A stretch of DNA of 64,000 nucleotides, from positions 1-64,000 of the forward strand of contig JADNRY010000144.1 of NCBI GenBank assembly GCA_015501585.1, in the 5' to 3' direction. The stretch is from Rhodocollybia butyracea (Eukaryota > Basidiomycota > Agaricomycetes > Agaricales > Omphalotaceae). The notes beneath the pieces are model-generated. The model did not search any database and had not been told where the DNA came from. It worked only from the letters and a program-made list of their open reading frames with translations. The translations under genes were made by a program, and so were the position numbers. Positions 53,300 through 61,009 of this stretch are shown here, in pieces (position 1 is the stretch's first letter; the number at the start of each line of letters is the position of its first letter).

Positions 53300-53712
53300 T
53301 ACCCACATTTTTCCAGAAAGTGACCTTCATTGCAGACAAAGAAGGTAGTTTCATCTCGGGACCCACTCATCTCAATACCACCTCGAGACCCGCTCGTTTC
53401 GATAGTGCTGAGGGCATCAGCCTGAGTGGTTTTGCTGGGGGATAAATAAATTCTTTGACCTCGCTCAATGTGACTATACCTACGAGGGTAAATGGGAACC
53501 AGCTCAAGGAAACAAGAAATTTGTTTATTTCAAGATCACTGGTAACGTGTTATGACCCACATCCACATCCTATGCACCCACCTTTTTCTTCTATTAACCA
53601 AATATGGCCACTATCATTAACATTCCTACTTCACACTTATTACACACATTCATTACTTATTTTCTCTTCACACCGCTTGAGATAATGCCGCACAGACCCT
53701 TATTCACAGTAT

Positions 53713-53910
53713 TGACTCATTATTACTCAATTCCGGTTCCACTGAATGACTCAACATCAGTCAATTACGGTTCCACCTAAATGACTCATCATCAGTCATT
53801 GCACAGCATCTGCAGTCAGGCTGACTGATCTGCAGCATTTCCACAGTTATGACTCAAAACTAGTCATTCCGCAGCATTTCCTAACTAGTACATATTAAAC
53901 AGTATATAAG
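53713..53910 (+). promoter_or_regulatory. Promoter: four TGACTCA sites and a TATA box
   Basis: TGACTCA, the core site of Gcn4/AP-1-type bZIP factors, occurs at 53713-53719, 53747-53753, 53782-53788 and 53850-53856. Two of them sit in a tandem unit of about 35 bp (CGGTTCCAC..AATGACTCA). TATATAAG is at 53903-53910. Transcription would start around 53935, giving a leader of almost 800 nt before the ATG at 54728. The structure resembles the U3 part of an LTR, but no second LTR lies inside the window, so LTR status is unproven. Confidence 0.55.
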
Positions 53911-54010
53911 AAGGCTAGATTTACCAATGTACGGTAGACGTATTATTTTCTTAAATCCAAACCCCCACTTGTTTGCTGTTATCACTTGTGTGAATCACCA
54001 GACCAACTCA

Positions 54011-54323
54011 TTGTATCTTGTTGAGCTATCTCCAAGCTACAATACACATTTATACATCTTGTTGAGCTAACTCCAAGTTGTATCCACTAACATTCACCTG
54101 TTGAGCTATCTCCTAGTGAATACTTCTTTAATTGCCACTTGTTGAGCTATCTCCGAGTTGCAACTTCCTATTACTTGTTGAGCTATCTCCGAGTATTAGA
54201 CACCACACTCACTACTACTTGTTGAGCCATCTCCGAGTATTAGTTCTGATTCATATTACTGCTTGTTGAGCCATCTCTGAGGGTAATCTTATTATTATTT
54301 GTCGAGCTATCTCCAAATAATAA
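54011..54323 (+). ncRNA. Array of eight tandem hairpins with a shared loop and covarying stems
   Basis: Eight units spaced about 36-46 bp share a 12-nt loop, TTGAGC(T/C)ATCTC (one TTGAGCTAACTC, one TCGAGCTATCTC), at 54021, 54062, 54101, 54142, 54178, 54222, 54266 and 54302. The 10 nt on each side pair with each other but differ from unit to unit. Unit 1 is TTGTATCTTG with CAAGCTACAA; unit 2 ATACATCTTG with CAAGTTGTAT; unit 5 CTATTACTTG with CGAGTATTAG; unit 8 TTATTATTTG with CAAATAATAA (all ten pairs). Units 4-6 include G-U pairs on the plus strand, which favours RNA from that strand. The array lies in the leader between the TATA box and the ORF at 54728. It could serve in packaging, translation or stability; the role is unknown. 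Confidence 0.75.
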
Positions 54324-54452
54324 CTTCTGTGAGTTTCGTATTACAAACTAGTTACTAACTTTACTTGAGCCTAGTTGTTTGAGTATATATTTTTTGCCTA
54401 GCGGTTTCAACAAACGGAAAGGCTTGCTCTATAATCTTAGGCCTGAGGCAGT

Positions 54453-54499
54453 CCCCTCTAAGTGGTTGACGGCTTAAGCAAGAAACCTCGTTAGAGGGG
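54453..54499 (+). ncRNA. Further stem in the same leader
   Basis: CCCCTCTAA (54453-54461) and TTAGAGGGG (54491-54499) form a perfect 9-bp stem around a 29-nt loop that itself contains short complements. It is flanked by GCCTGAGGC and a GAAACCGGCTTCGG stretch, so the whole leader from 54011 to about 54530 appears folded. Confidence 0.5.
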
Positions 54500-54727
54500 C
54501 CTGGAAACCGGCTTCGGACCGTGGCATAGACTTTTTTGATCTATATAAGTCTTAACCCCAATATGGGCAAAGCGGATGGGAAAATAAAATTGTATTGAAA
54601 ACTGTTCCACCAATTCCGTCGACTTTTAGTTTTCTTCCATCTTTTCTGTGCTTTCAACACTTTTGACGTGTCGTTACACAAACGACGCGTTTATAACAAT
54701 ATCAATCAATTCTTACAACACAACGAA

Positions 54728-55176
54728 ATGAATTCCCAGCCTTTATTCCAGTTCGTCTTGAATACAGCTCCAGTAGCACCAGATCCTAGTGCATTACAAC
54801 AGTCAATCTCCCAGCCGATGACCTTTGGTACAGACCCAGTTTTAGTGCCAAAAACAAGAAGACAAAAACAGAAACCTGCGGTGTTCAAAGTCCCAGATTA
54901 TCCTATTCAAAGCTTTGCAACTGAAAGCCAATCACCTGCAGGCTGCTCATCTTTTCTACAGTCGCCGAGTTTGACTCCAATTGTGGGACTAGGACTTGCA
55001 GAGCCTTTTCTAGAGAACGGAACCGATACCCAGTCGCCACTAGCGAGCAGTCTATTCTCTAGCTTCGATACTCCAGATTCATCTTCATATTTTACCAGCA
55101 CCAACACTCGCTCATTCCACCAGCTTCCAGCCACTCTGGCAACTCCAGCTCTCTTGTCATCTTGGTCAGAGCCATC
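54728..55176 (+). pseudogene. Ser/Pro/Gln-rich ORF, 5' part, split by a hAT element (continues at 63881)
   Basis: The first ATG is at 54728 (MNSQPLFQFVLNTAPVAPDP). The product is rich in Ser, Pro, Thr and Gln with a basic patch (KTRRQKQKPAVFK). At SWSEPS the reading frame enters the inserted hAT element, so the hybrid frame runs to a stop at 55324 within transposon DNA. If the insertion and one GAGCCATC copy are set aside, the frame continues at 63881 as SSPEIIPQTPQS and stays open to the window end. The original gene may be a gag-like ORF of a retroelement or a host gene with a structured leader; no zinc knuckle, protease or polymerase is seen here, and I do not recognise a family. Confidence 0.5.
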
Positions 55177-55798
55177 TAGAGATGTCCATGAGTCCAAGTC
55201 TTCACAAGTACTTGCAGGTAAGATCCGTGGGAAAACCCGCAAGTATGTGACTCGCGGATCCCAGGATCCGTTTCCCACGGGTCAGGCGCAGGTCACAAGT
55301 CAGACATTTGCAATTTTCGGTTGACTTGCAAGTACTTGTGTGACTTGTGCAAGCAATATGAACTCATATATTTGTTGTTGGTGATCAAAACTTACAGTAA
55401 TTAATAGTATCATATTTATTATAGTACTTATCAAGTACTGTCACACATGTTTGAGGTTGTAGACAGCTCAAAGCGACTGAGCGCTTATTTTAGCGCCCAA
55501 TCGCCGTAGGCTGTCTACAATCCAAAGCCTAACTGTCAGTACATTTTTTTTTTTTTTTTTTTTGTGGAGAGTAATATCTCCCTACGGTGTGCCGACAATG
55601 TCGTACAGCGTCGGGCCTCTGTAATGTTCAGCTGGAGCTGAACTGGTAATAGTCCACCTGGAGAAATGCTGTTACGCACGTGCATCCAGTAGATGCTTTT
55701 GTGTGGGACTCTTGATCTGTGCTGTACCGCCACTCCTAACCCCATCTCCACTCCACACCATTACTTACCGCATATACCATAATCATAATCATAACCCC

Positions 55799-58700
55799 TC
55801 AGCCGACACCAGCACTAATACCCACTAAAACTCCAGTTCTCTTGCACCAGTCCTCTGGGAGAGAGTCACGACCTTCGAGCACATTCTGCCAGGTCTTTGT
55901 TACTAAGGCGCAGCTAAGCGCTTTGCCCCCGAACTTTTTTGAGTTTGTTAGTAGGCGATCTAAACTCAGTCGCGAGTTTATGGTGAACATCCACCGATTT
56001 GTCACTTCCTGTGCTGATGGGTTTGGCTTTGCATTGATTACCCGTGCATTCCTTAGTTTCCAGATCAGATGTGCAGATTCCGAGACAATGATACGGTAGA
56101 GCCTCGATTCCCCTTTGAGGGTTTTGTTTCCTTTCCGGAAGGACGCTAGACCACAGGCCAGGATCTCCCCCAAACCTGGTTTGGTCCAGTCCGATTTGTT
56201 CTGCCGCCATAGGCTCTCACATAGTTCCCATATCTCCTTCTGACCTGGGACTTGGCAATCTGTCAATATGTGGTCCATTGACTCCTCACAGTTGCAGTGT
56301 TGGCAGGTACCTCTATGCTCGTGGTTTGGTATGTTTCTCCATCTCTTGCCCACTTTGTATGCTGAGTGCATCATCATGTACTGGAAGTGACGGGCTGATC
56401 TCGAGATATCTTTGTGCCGCAGTCCTTGCCATAGTTTCTCATCTGTGAAGTTCCTGCCAGTTAGGCGTAGTGCAGCGTCTCTTGCTCTCTCCATGTTTGC
56501 ACTAGCCTCTGGGCGGTCTAAGGGATCGGGGTACCCGGGATCTTCCATCTTGATCCTTCGGATGTTGTTGTAGGCAATGGATTGTGTTATTTTGCTCAGT
56601 CGCACGCCAGAAAGTTGTAGTGCCCTTGGTACAGTGAGGTCAATCATATCCTCAGCTGCTTTCTCTCGTCCTTCGTTCGCAAGTTTGTCTGCTTCTTCAT
56701 TTCCTTCTATACCAGCATGGGCCTTGACCCATTTGATATTTGTTAGAGCTGTTCTCTTTCGAAGGGCGGCAACTGTAGCCTGGATTTCCTGGCTGTTTTT
56801 TATTCCTGTGAAGCCAGTGTCTTCCCACTTTTGTAGGTTTACAGTCAATCCTTCGACCATGGTCCTTGAGTCACTTGCTACTGTGACTTCAACCATTCCC
56901 GGCAATTTCTGTACCGCTTCCTTGATGCCAATAATTTCTCCCGTTTGGTTTGACTGTGTGAGTGTTCCTGGTATACGGATGGCGGTGTTGTACATACTGT
57001 TTTCTGTAACAAAAATTCCAGCGCCAGCGGTTGCATCCTGGTCGCCGTTTTTCTTACACGACCCATCAGTGTAGACTATGACTGGTTCAATCGGGCCATC
57101 TTGGTCCCGTTCGGAGATATGCACTGAGTTACACTTATTGCCCTCTGTGAATATTCGAAAGGCATCCGCTAATGTTCCTTTGGTGGTGATTCTGTAGTCA
57201 AATGTCTTTGCATTTTCGTTTGGCTGGTTAGGTAGGTTTTCCGGTTCTACATCCTCTGGGAGGTATGAGAGTGGGTTCCATTTAGCAGGTAGGGCACTCA
57301 GTATTTGTTTTGCTTTAGTGAAGCAACGGTGGGGGTTCTCACAATCAGTGTTTTCCCAGGTGTCTTTGCAGGCTGTGCATCGGCAATTCCTCCGTTTTCC
57401 ATGTCGAGCTGTTCCCAGTTTCCTGGCTAGGGTTTCAGCATCCCCAACAGTTCGGATGGAGTGGTTCTTCTTTAGGCACTTGCTTGCGGCACTATTGTTC
57501 AAATGACGAATCTCCATAGACTCAATGTGGTACCAGATTGGCATTTGCCTTATGATATCACGGGAGAAGGCAAGCCCTTCTAGGCGCGTTCCATACTTCT
57601 TTGCTATGTTTATCATCGTTTGCAGGTCTTTGGGTAATTTTGATTTTGCTGTCTTCCATGATTGGAGGAAGATGTTTATGCGGTTGAAGTCCTCTACGCC
57701 CTCTTCAGTTTGGGGTATATGGTGAGCTATTAGGGCATCTGCAATGGAGGCCCATGTTGGGCGATCATGGTTGAAGTTCAGGTATGATTTGAGCCAGGTT
57801 ACGGTGATTGCCTCATTTCGGTCTATCAGGTTCAGCAGACCCTTGCCACCTTCATTTATGGGTGCATGCAGTACCTCCTTTTTTATGGTGACATGGGTTT
57901 TTCCCGCCCAGATGAAGTCCTTGATCCTCTTCTCCAGTTTTGTCTCTACCTCCTTTGGCATACCTTGTACCTTGGTTAGGTACTGGGTCATTCCTCCCAC
58001 TATCATCATTATTATTAGGCGTCTTCCCTCCATTGTGGGGTGGCTCCTCCCCCATCTTTCAAGTGCGGCGTCTATCTTTTTCGATGACTCTTGCCCAGGG
58101 CGTTACTTGGCATACACCATTTCCAATCATGGCCCCAAGGGAGCGTATGGCCTCGCCTTCTATGGCAACTTTGATATGCTCTGGGACTTTGGTGCCGTCA
58201 GTTCCATTCATGAATCTTGATTGGCGCATTGCTTCCCGATACTCAGGCGAGCCAATAGGTATGATTTCTGTCTTGTTTATATTAAACTTTGCACCTGATG
58301 CAAGGCACCAGCGATCTAAGACTTTGACAAGGTCGCCAAAGTCATCCTCTTTTGAGAGATAAACTGTGGTGTCATCAGCAAAGAGTGTTGCTATGAGACG
58401 TTCTTGTTTCCCGGGAATTGACAGGCCTTTTAGATCTGATTTTCGGAGGCCCTCTGCCAATGGCTCAATCGCTATATTGAAAATTAGGCATGAGAGGGGG
58501 TCTCCTTGGCGGACTCCTCTAATCACCTGAAAGGCGGACTCGCTGCGTTCTCCATTAACCATCAATGTGGTGTAGGCATCACTGTAGAGTGTTCTGACGG
58601 TTGATATAAATTCGTTAGGAATCTTATATGATCTCATTGCTTTCCAAAGGTAGTCATGTTTAATCTTATCGTACGCTTTTTCTTGGTCCAAGGCCACAAG

Positions 58701-61009
58701 CGCACCATCCTGTTTGGTCGCTTCTGCGAATTCAATGACGAGTTTTGAAAGCCAAATCTGGTCGTAGATAAGGCGTCCTGGTACGAAGCCTGCCTGGGCT
58801 GGATTTATTATGTATGGTGCTGCCTTTGCTAGTTTAATGCTCAGGGCTTTTGTCATGATCTTGTAGTTGGTATTGAGTAAGGATATTGGGCGGTAGTTGA
58901 CCATCTGTGCACGGTCATTTTTCTTGTAAAGTGGGCACATCCAGCTTGCCGAAAATTCTGTGTTTGGTTCCATACCATTTTCCTCAATATCATTATAGAC
59001 TGAAAGGAGGCATCGGATGATGTCGAAGGTTGGTTTGTCCTCTGCGGCGCGGTTTTTGCACTGATCGTTGATAATTTTCCAAATTTCGTATGTGATACCA
59101 TCAAGTCCTGGTGCCGTGTGGTTTGTGGAGAGCCTTAGGGCCTCCGCTACGTCTTCATAGGTTAACCGCTGTTGTAAGTTTTGGATATGTTCCTCAGGAG
59201 TATAGGTGGTGACATTCTGAAGGACTTCAGTTATTGCAGCTGCCCGGTCATGCTCGTCTGGGGGGTATGGTCATACTGGATATCATTATGGTATTCTCGC
59301 ATCATGTTTGCCATTTTCTGTGAAGACTTCTCATATACTGGGCGTGGGTTTTCTCCGTCGTTCGGGTGCGTTGGATCACGGATTTCAAGCCTCTGAATTA
59401 GGTCCCTTGGTTTCTTGCTTTTATTTAAGCTGGACCAGTATTTGCTTATGGTCTCACTGTAAAGTGTGCTTCTTGCTTTGATTGTGGAGCGCGTGGATTT
59501 GTGTCGTTGAAATTCCAGCTCCGCCAGTTTCTCAATCAGTACCGCATTGGATAGTGCTCGTTCCTCCTCGTTGAGGAGGGGATTGGTTTCGATGGAGCGT
59601 AGCTTGGCTTCGGTTTCGTTAATGAGTGTAGTGAGCCTAGGGACTACAATATGGGCCCTTTCCCGGGCTTTCTTGAGAGTATTTCGTTTGAACTCAGCCC
59701 ATAAAGTTTGTGGGTTGTTGGTGTTGTCCCGTTGTTGGGTTCCGTGAGCAATTCCATCAAGTTTTTGTTGGAGTTTGAGTCCCTTCTCTTGGATGTATTT
59801 TGTGAGATCTTTGTCCTGCATTAGGTGTGTTGGCCAGACCCATCTCCCTGTGCCTATTGACGGGGCAGATTCACTTGTTATTTTGACTGATACCATTCTA
59901 TGGTCGGTCTTGATCCCAGTTGTTGTGATGCGCCATTCATATGCATTCTCAAACATGCTTGACTTAATGTATATTCTGTCCAGTCTCGACTGGTGGGGTT
60001 GTCGGTCATTCCTCTTTTCTTTATAGGTATATGCCCGCGTGTCGGGGTATGTCAAGTGCCATCCATCTTCAAAGCGCCGTTTACTTTTAAACTCATCAAG
60101 TGCCGTTACCGTGGATTCCGCATCCGGGTGCATGGGTAGGCGGTCAATTTCATCTTCAACCATGTTACAGTCACCAAGCATGAGGTCAGGTTCTCGTATT
60201 TGAGGATTTTTGTCGAAGAAGGCATCAAGCCTCTCCCAAAATTCAGCATTCTCAGACATTGTGCGGTTCGGTGCATATATCCCTAGGATTGATATTCGTT
60301 CCTCATTATGCCAGTTTGTCTCTAGCAGTATGGCATGCCCCTGGATTACTTCGTGGACTGTCACATCCTGGGTATTTGTCAGTCTTTTATTCAAAACAAA
60401 AGCAACCCCAGCTTTGTTTGGCGTGTCAGGGAGTTTTGAGTACAGTATTTCCATTTTTGAACTAAAGAGGTTTGTGATATCCTGTTCACGCTGTTGATCC
60501 AAGTGGGCTTCTCCAACCAGTAGTATGCCTATTCAATGATCTTGGATGAGTTGATTTATGTCCATAAATTTATTTCCACGTGTATTTAGGGCCGCAATCT
60601 TGATCGATGCTTTTGTTTTAAGTTTGCAGGATACTTTCCTGCGGGCAGCCGTGGGTGGGTTTTGGGTCCTAACAGGATTTGTCTGCCGGTTTAGGGCATG
60701 TTCTCCATTATTCGGAGGAGGATTCGTGTTAGGAATCATTGGCTGGTTTAGAGCCTGACCATTTATATTTTGGTCCAACTGTGGTGCAGTTGTTCCAACA
60801 CTATGTACGGAACGGGTCGCGCCATGCGCCCCAGCACCTCCATCGGTGCCCCCTGGTCTGCGCCATGCATCCTGGGTTGCTCGAGTTTGAGCCATATCCT
60901 CGTCCCGACGGTTTCCATCATCCACACCTGCACTGGAGGCGACAGTATCAGGGTCTCCGGATCCCGAAGCCCCTGCCAGACAGTTAGTACCAAAAGAGAG
61001 TGAAGACAT
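55799..61009 (-). pseudogene. LINE ORF2: endonuclease, reverse transcriptase, RNase H (three lesions)
   Basis: The ORF begins at the ATG at 61009 (MSSLSFGTNCLAG). The endonuclease domain begins IKIAALNTRGNKF, later ILGIYAPNRT, LGDCNMVED, RLDRIYI and KTDHRMVSVKI, as in APE-type LINE nucleases. Reverse transcriptase shows YRPISLLNTNYKI, AGFVPGRLI, ALDQEKAYDKI, RGVRQGDPLS and LFADDTTVYL (catalytic Asp pair). RNase H has VIVYTDGSCKKNG and WVKAHAGIEGNEEADKLANE. A Cys/His motif CQHCNCEESMDHILTDC follows. Three breaks are visible: an in-frame TGA (60533-60535), a frame change at a run of six G (59260-59265, plus strand), and another at a run of five T (58077-58081). All else is well preserved, which suggests recent inactivation or homopolymer assembly errors. 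Confidence 0.9.

Follow-up and report, generated by a model that had tools for sequence, protein, structure and literature searches.

A tandem array of eight short hairpins at positions 54011 to 54323 of the window (the whole 64,000-nucleotide stretch of Rhodocollybia butyracea DNA that was analysed) is almost certainly a selected RNA structure in the leader of an LTR retrotransposon. The array most likely serves the element's own Gag protein as a multivalent signal for recognition (packaging); the complete proposal, in which a self-primed retrotransposon would carry in its leader a multivalent docking array for its own Gag, is advanced with rather less than even confidence. The eight units, supported by an arm-swap test and by pairing counts on the aligned units, are as follows.

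54011..54042, plus strand: hairpin 1
54052..54083, plus strand: hairpin 2
54091..54122, plus strand: hairpin 3, two inner positions unpaired
54132..54163, plus strand: hairpin 4
54168..54199, plus strand: hairpin 5
54212..54243, plus strand: hairpin 6
54255..54287, plus strand: hairpin 7, pairs with one bulged base
54292..54323, plus strand: hairpin 8, perfect 10-bp stem

The units constitute a direct-repeat family (D1, eight copies in the window), each having arms of about 10 nt on either side of a 12-nt centre, TTGAGCTATCTC, which is kept with small changes. The first-pass annotation had described eight hairpins with one kept loop and with stems that differ yet pair, and all of these units were recovered: no other of the 40,320 permutations of left against right arms had a summed folding energy as low as the true matching, and for lower-stem pairs two of the 40,320, the true one included, reached the true matching. 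Stems were imperfect in seven of the eight window units, with one pyrimidine-pyrimidine mismatch per stem in units 1, 2, 4, 5 and 6 and one further unpaired position at the stem base of hairpin 3, and hairpin 7 was replaced by other pairing when the whole array (54000-54330) was folded. In a gap-free alignment of the eight window units, scored for a structure of a 10-bp stem plus the inner GAG/CUC, 88.5% of cells were paired (shuffled mean 76.6%; 0 of 500 shuffles as high) and 13 cells had changed on both sides (4.8 in shuffles; reached by 0 of 500). Both-side change was seen in six pairs (3.4 in shuffles; reached by 12 of 500), the number of further pair types was within the ordinary range (reached by 158 of 500), and sliding the partner by one to three columns left only 36-49% of cells paired. 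The covariation attributed to the stems thus stands as regards pairing and both-side changes, both beyond those of shuffles, and is to be qualified by the imperfect stems and by the changes CAAG/CGAG/TGAG, which are weak evidence by themselves as they can also be read as CpG decay, a process that accounts for some of the stem changes of C/T and G/A type. The plus strand of 51 distinct units of family A (the family of the window copy) contains 54 G-U cells as against 9 A-C cells, an excess that speaks for an RNA of this strand, as the G-U pairs had suggested at first sight. The folding-energy signal of the array region is by itself modest (54000-54330; z = -2.56 on the plus strand and -1.75 on the minus strand). 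No match above the gathering score was obtained from Rfam 15 in the window (a weak match to GlsR6 within the array, at 16.4 bits, was far under the cut-off of 75), and a tRNA scan found none. With pairing kept by compensatory change and the loop kept, the earlier proposal of a selected RNA structure, with the fixed loop as the likely recognised part, is borne out.

Homologous arrays were found elsewhere, as the first-pass annotation had led one to expect, both dispersed in the genome and, as further arrays, in two divergent families. Allowing up to one mismatch, the loop motif gave 1,697 + 1,416 = 3,113 matches in the 95.6-Mb genome, relative to 13 + 30 for a reversed control, and searches with the array region produced 364 and 369 first-look candidates, the best 40 of each being scored and all of these matching. 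Nearly all of the 67 arrays extracted (duplicates included) contained 6 to 10 units, and the loop was kept in these arrays, which does not fit the alternative of independent inverted-repeat duplication without loop conservation. Five viral contigs had one exact match each and no array, and were taken as chance. C1 and C136 each contain two same-direction arrays, 5.5 and 4.7 kb apart, respectively. Self-comparison placed these within direct repeats, the two LTRs, which measure 1252 bp in the first (100% identical) and 1170 bp in the second (99.8%). Complete elements have LTR ends TGTTATGAC...GTCATAACA, and a purine tract precedes the right LTR in both self-compared elements; a 5-bp target duplication (ACAGG) is clear in L009, and none is clear in L010. 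Between the LTRs of L009 lies a Gag ORF (Retrotrans_gag, 1.5e-6) with a CCHC knuckle recognised by sequence, its interior containing Gag frames only, and in L072 the single ORF of at least 120 aa between the LTRs is a 1132-aa Gag frame. A 749-aa frame of L010 had no Pfam match, and this element may be more reduced than other Gag-only copies. Judged from its sequence features (LTR pair, target duplication in L009, polypurine tract, CCHC Gag and RT/RNase H), the array element is a Ty3/gypsy-type LTR retrotransposon. L072 and L009 have LTRs and Gag and no Pol, the composition of TR-GAG elements, and for other copies at 90-100% Gag identity no Pol was present among the RT_RNaseH_2 matches listed. 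The Gag includes a collagen-like GRDGRDGRDG stretch (L072 136-3534; L009), which is also found in a relative from Lentinula raphanica (P0001). Two LTR copies (L073 and L074) contain a hairpin unit that has decayed, and before them lies a stretch that looks like a degenerate coding sequence for a CCHC zinc knuckle.

The window itself holds a truncated LTR of family A, and the features of this copy and its surroundings are listed below together with their basis.

53548..54437, plus strand: truncated LTR, family A, with the 5' end TGTTATGAC present and the 3' end lost (blastn to the LTRs of the complete elements L009 and L010)
53713..53856, plus strand: U3 repeats, with four TGACTCA sites at 53713, 53747, 53782 and 53850 (repeat and sequence)
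53903..53910, plus strand: LTR TATA box (sequence; 33 nt upstream of the self-primer)
53936..53947, plus strand: predicted RNA start and self-primer AGACGTATTATT (complementarity to the 12 nt AATAATACGTCT adjoining the 5' LTR in complete copies)
53956..53963, plus strand: left arm UCCAAACC of a long-range stem (fold of three complete leaders)
54329..54374, plus strand: putative 46-nt intron GTGAGT...TACTAAC...CCTAG, right after the array (sequence pattern)
54728..55324, plus strand: downstream ORF, probably a host gene outside the element (protein relative; own TATATAAG at 54542)

LTR homology in the window stops at about 54437, no LTR end GTCATAACA was found downstream of the LTR start at 53548 in the window copy, and the primer site, the Gag ORF and the right partner GGUUUGGA of the long-range stem are absent from this copy. 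The TGACTCA sites of its U3 we take to be of bZIP/Gcn4 type; the U3 repeats differ by subfamily, with TGACTCA units in the window copy and TGACATCA/TGATGTCA units, presumably also bZIP-type sites, in L009 (approximately 586-898). The array had initially been assigned to the leader of the ORF at 54728. It belongs instead to the retrotransposon leader, and the ORF was rejected as the array's own because of its nearer TATATAAG and its relative in Rhodocollybia butyracea (57% identity over 90%), on account of which it looks like a host gene. The LTR remnant abuts this host-type gene (54438-54728) and may serve as an upstream promoter for it. The stretch 55177-55548 (the end of the ORF and the bases following it) matches L038 2464-2835 at 97%, so that part of the ORF is repeated at another place in the genome. 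ORFs with RVT_1 and RNase H on the minus strand at 55799-58973, perhaps extending to 62950, are probably LINE-type and lie beside the LTR remnant.

Directly after the LTR, complete copies have T and then AATAATACGTCT. The latter is exactly complementary to AGACGTATTATT, a sequence that begins 33 nt after the start of TATATAAG, and the array lies between this 5' 12-nt primer and its complementary primer site. For each of three copies, the 20 nt that follow the LTR were shuffled 20,000 times, and a 12-nt complement never arose. A tRNA-type primer site (TGG next to the LTR) was absent from the complete copies examined, its place being taken by T plus the leader complement. The site is complementary to the element's own predicted RNA 5' end, as in self-primed (Tf1-type) elements, and the distance from the TATA box to this predicted end, 31-36 nt across the four families, points to an RNA start at the self-primer. 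Predicted primer/site pairing was at least 0.9 in 10 of 12 family A copies and at least 0.73 in 11 of 13 copies of the four families; the four exceptions (two in each set) all carry primer changes, predicted pairing being 0.28 and 0.37 in the two changed family A copies. In three leader folds the hairpin GACU/AGUC stands beside the primer duplex, and the array is enclosed by the stem UCCAAACC/GGUUUGGA, which closes the leader. Several middle units of longer leaders fold otherwise in the model, with pairing of approximately 0.1-0.6.

A set of 51 distinct family A leaders, 579-674 nt in length, was obtained from the 51 of 63 loci (L009-L071) in which the primer and the LTR end could be recognised; copies that are truncated or diverged, that of the window among them, are not part of the set. 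The array stretch is probably part of an mRNA leader, since these leaders are almost AUG-free: no ATG occurs in 45 of the 51 and one or two in the other six, relative to means of 8.8-10.2 in shuffles of three leaders. The complement CAT occurs 9-13 times per leader, and 11-20 ATG are present in the 600 nt preceding the TATA box in 50 of 51 copies (in the 51st, for which the count reads 0, the U3 slice ran past the locus start near a contig end). Among the leaders of four families, 11 of 13 likewise have no ATG. A GTGAGT...TACTAAC...CCTAG stretch of 46 or 47 nt follows the array directly in all 51 distinct leaders. For two leaders, the strict intron pattern was matched by 11 and 3, respectively, of 3,000 shuffles. 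The branch point TACTAAC of this putative intron is perfect; since every copy retains the stretch, the RNA that is reverse-transcribed would, if the intron is real, be unspliced. Differences per site among 12 complete copies were 0.124 in U3, 0.051 in the TATA region, 0.040 in the primer, 0.035 after the array, 0.029 in stems, 0.018 in loops, 0.010 in spacers and 0.000 in the leader before the array (the pattern finds seven units of the reference copy, so that its last unit was scored as 'after the array'). Relative to U3, the whole leader is conserved. Tighter constraint on stems than on spacers was not found in these 12 complete family A copies, which counts against the hairpins being docking sites for Gag.

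A search of the genome for Gag gave at least 62 matches from the best 57 of 384 candidates scored, comprising copies at 90-100% identity, a group at 84-87%, broken pieces between, and groups at 38-48%. In a corresponding search for RT_RNaseH_2, with the best 150 of 424 candidates scored, all four families had copies in which a listed match lay 2.0-2.2 kb past Gag and in the orientation of Gag. These included at least six copies of the 84-87% group (C481, C1012, C591, C611, C1185 and C1223) and at least ten of the 38-44% groups (C1149, C441, C521, C1123, C562, C506, C546, C617, C750 and C522), and a match to RVT_1 (1.1e-37) was obtained in family B. The same array is found in Gag-Pol copies (C481, C1012 and C591) and in Gag-only copies; the Gag-Pol leaders L095, L096 and L098 have nine units each and a primer site common with the Gag-only copies, and L097 has six array units. 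Gag relatives were found in Dendrothele bispora (eight) and Lentinula raphanica (one), the search with words from the first 500 residues giving one relative and that with the capsid part giving eight; together with the relative of the downstream ORF, they point to an agaric host.

Three distinct primer/site pairs, of 12, 12 and 16 nt and complementary in each case, occur among the four families, and between families the primer and its site covary. Family B (L082 and L086) has the primer AGACTTCTTATT and the site AATAAGAAGTCT, with seven or eight hairpins by eye (for example, ATTACTG-AGCGTTTC-CAGTAAT), and family C (L083, L085, L087, L088 and L100) has the family B primer, one base being changed in L087, with approximately five hairpins. 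Family D (L084 and L091-L094) has the primer CTTTAGTCTCTATATT with a 16-nt complement, and no clear hairpin array was seen in its leaders; on this showing self-priming can dispense with an array, and the array is not obligatory for self-primed elements. The comparison of leaders from four families (13 copies) was made without L082, which starts inside the leader, and L085, in which the primer was not included, and L089 and L090, in which the stretch taken did not cover the leader, were dropped from the 13 leaders fetched.

Families B and C, at 39-44% Gag identity, have hairpins of their own, whose stems differ from those of family A, whose loops are similar in part and which show compensatory changes. 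Twelve of these, chosen by eye from L086, L083 and L088, were counted (L082, L085, L087 and L100 repeat them almost exactly; hairpin 0 and the bulged hairpin 1, which gave no gap-free alignment, were excluded), and 12 cells had changed on both sides, relative to 3.4 in shuffles (0 of 500). Pairing in 84 of 84 cells is no proof alone, since the hairpins were picked for pairing; three pairs changed on both sides and five pair types are not unusual numbers (reached by 214 and 278 of 500 shuffles, respectively), and 75% of cells still paired with the partner slid by +3. Orthologous hairpin 1 has CTG/CAG in L086 and L083 and TTG/CAA in L087 and L088, and orthologous hairpin 3 has ATACTATTG/CAATAGTAT in L083 and ATATTACTG/CAGTAGTAT in L088. 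Automatic detection of stems of at least 7 bp gave 6, 5, 4 and 4 in L086, L083, L088 and L087, respectively, with shuffle means of 0.9-1.2 and largest shuffled counts of 4, 3, 4 and 4 (300 simple shuffles), so that the counts of L088 and L087, taken alone, do not exceed chance; the counts of L086 and L083 include one or two stems other than array hairpins. The loops of families A and B share G-AGC/U...UC-C, a motif that we read as homologous and that is preceded in A by an additional TTG, and most family C loops begin AAG or ACG.

According to the mechanism proposed here, the RNA would start approximately 33 nt after the LTR TATA box, and its first 12 nt would anneal to the site that directly follows the 5' LTR and act, as in Tf1, as the primer of reverse transcription. 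The leader, closed by the primer duplex, the adjacent small hairpin and the long-range stem, would enclose 6 to 10 short hairpins sharing one conserved loop. These would be docking sites for the element's Gag, with its CCHC zinc knuckle, and would mark unspliced RNA for packaging into particles; with an array in common, Gag-only copies could then make use of the particles and reverse transcriptase of Gag-Pol copies. Self-priming in vivo, the binding of Gag, packaging and this sharing are what we infer from these data. The pattern is one of multivalent binding, as judged from a leader that is very probably transcribed, the compensatory pairing, the kept loop and the variable number of units. 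Among candidate binders Gag comes first, given the place of the array next to the primer in the leader, its occurrence in Gag-Pol and Gag-only copies alike and its recurrence in related elements; a host protein comes second. More tentatively still, agaric self-primed retrotransposons in general may carry a repeat-built multivalent packaging signal, in which hairpins with a Gag-recognised loop would have been duplicated and re-stemmed, expanded separately in divergent families, and kept in common by Gag-Pol and dependent Gag-only elements; the families with separate arrays differ by over half of the compared Gag sequence.

Binding of a host RNA-binding protein, or assistance to ribosomes across the long leader (translation, export or stability), is unlikely, though to be taken seriously. 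A leader of this length that is nearly AUG-free is probably scanned or shunted, the putative intron lies directly after the array, and identical loops would be equally suitable for a host protein; nothing specific speaks against it, and 6 to 10 units with a kept loop suit any multivalent binder. It is improbable that the array is a folding scaffold which, by compacting the leader, brings the 5' primer to its site, as would suit its place exactly between the two and a fold that closes them as one domain. Modelled primer pairing nevertheless stays at 0.95 when the array is shuffled (60 shuffles each in two copies) and shifts by less than 0.1 in 12 of 12 copies when it is deleted, results that are not decisive because the energy model hardly penalises long loops, and family D pairs its 16-nt primer without a clear array. 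Quite improbable, too, are kissing contacts between loops that would dimerise the genomic RNA: the 4-nt palindrome AGCU occurs in six of the eight window loops, but units 6 and 7 have AGCC, and among the 12 loops of families B and C two have AGCU within AAGCUU and two more hold ACGU, but eight have neither. Ty1 dimerises and packages via kissing hairpins, according to the accessible part of the source (PMC5454406). A functionless origin, by tandem duplication of a chance hairpin in the LTR and its spread by transposition, would explain the variation in unit number (6 to 10), the 44-nt spacing of units 5-9 in L009 and spacers as conserved as stems; it is very improbable, since duplication copies stems unchanged, yet neighbouring stems differ and still pair, compensatory changes are found between families too, and partly similar loops recur in families at 39-44% Gag identity. 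DNA sites (a promoter-proximal enhancer or cruciform) are scarcely credible in spite of the position of the repeats close downstream of a TATA box, as only pairing and not stem sequence is kept between units, G-U cells exceed A-C cells 54 to 9, and AUG depletion marks the stretch as transcribed leader.

Taken as a putative docking array for Gag in a self-primed leader, the family A array can be set beside several known systems. Tf1 of Schizosaccharomyces pombe self-primes with the first 11 bases of its RNA, and self-priming has been proposed for Tcn1 of Cryptococcus (PMC7175516, in the portion available) and is known for Tj1 (PMC4600332, likewise in part). As in Tf1, the predicted 5' sequence of the family A RNA is complementary to a site adjoining the 5' LTR (PMC7175516 and PMC4600332, same portions). 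The small hairpin next to that site is reminiscent of a U5-IR-like structure reported for Tf1. Unlike Tf1, the agaric primers are 12 and 16 nt rather than 11, and the long agaric leader holds an array of 6-10 fixed-loop hairpins, none being mentioned for Tf1 or Tj1 in the available portions of these sources. In Ty1, 5' RNA kissing hairpins and a pseudoknot (TIPIRT) serve translation, packaging and priming (PMC5454406, accessible part). Family A resembles Ty1 in being a fungal LTR retrotransposon with structured 5' RNA, and differs in having many alike hairpins with one loop where Ty1, as far as that part of the source describes it, has two hairpins with complementary loops. Retroviral packaging leaders have few hairpins. 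The HIV-1 Psi hairpin and SL-C/SL-D of MoMuLV are leader packaging or dimerisation elements (PMC7599994, in the part accessible). Unlike these, family A has a tandem array of up to ten near-identical loops, with a Gag binding that is here putative. Family A Gag-only copies are like TR-GAG elements in having LTRs, one Gag frame and no Pol ORF; unlike those of the TR-GAG literature, which in its accessible part is mostly from plants, they are agaric and have a leader and array in common with a Gag-Pol relative. No description of a comparable hairpin array was found in the open literature, a body of sources that leaves most subscription journals outside its coverage. To our knowledge, the selection of their own RNA by LTR retrotransposons outside budding yeast is poorly known. 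Natural copies that differ in their number of covarying hairpins would provide a dosage series in which multivalent recognition by Gag could be examined. With the new primer/site pairs, which clearly covary, self-priming is extended to elements of agarics, and from the Gag-only copies it can be read which parts of the leader survive the loss of Pol. Some RNA viruses carry dispersed packaging hairpins, and the agaric array, if the proposed function is true, would be their retroelement counterpart.
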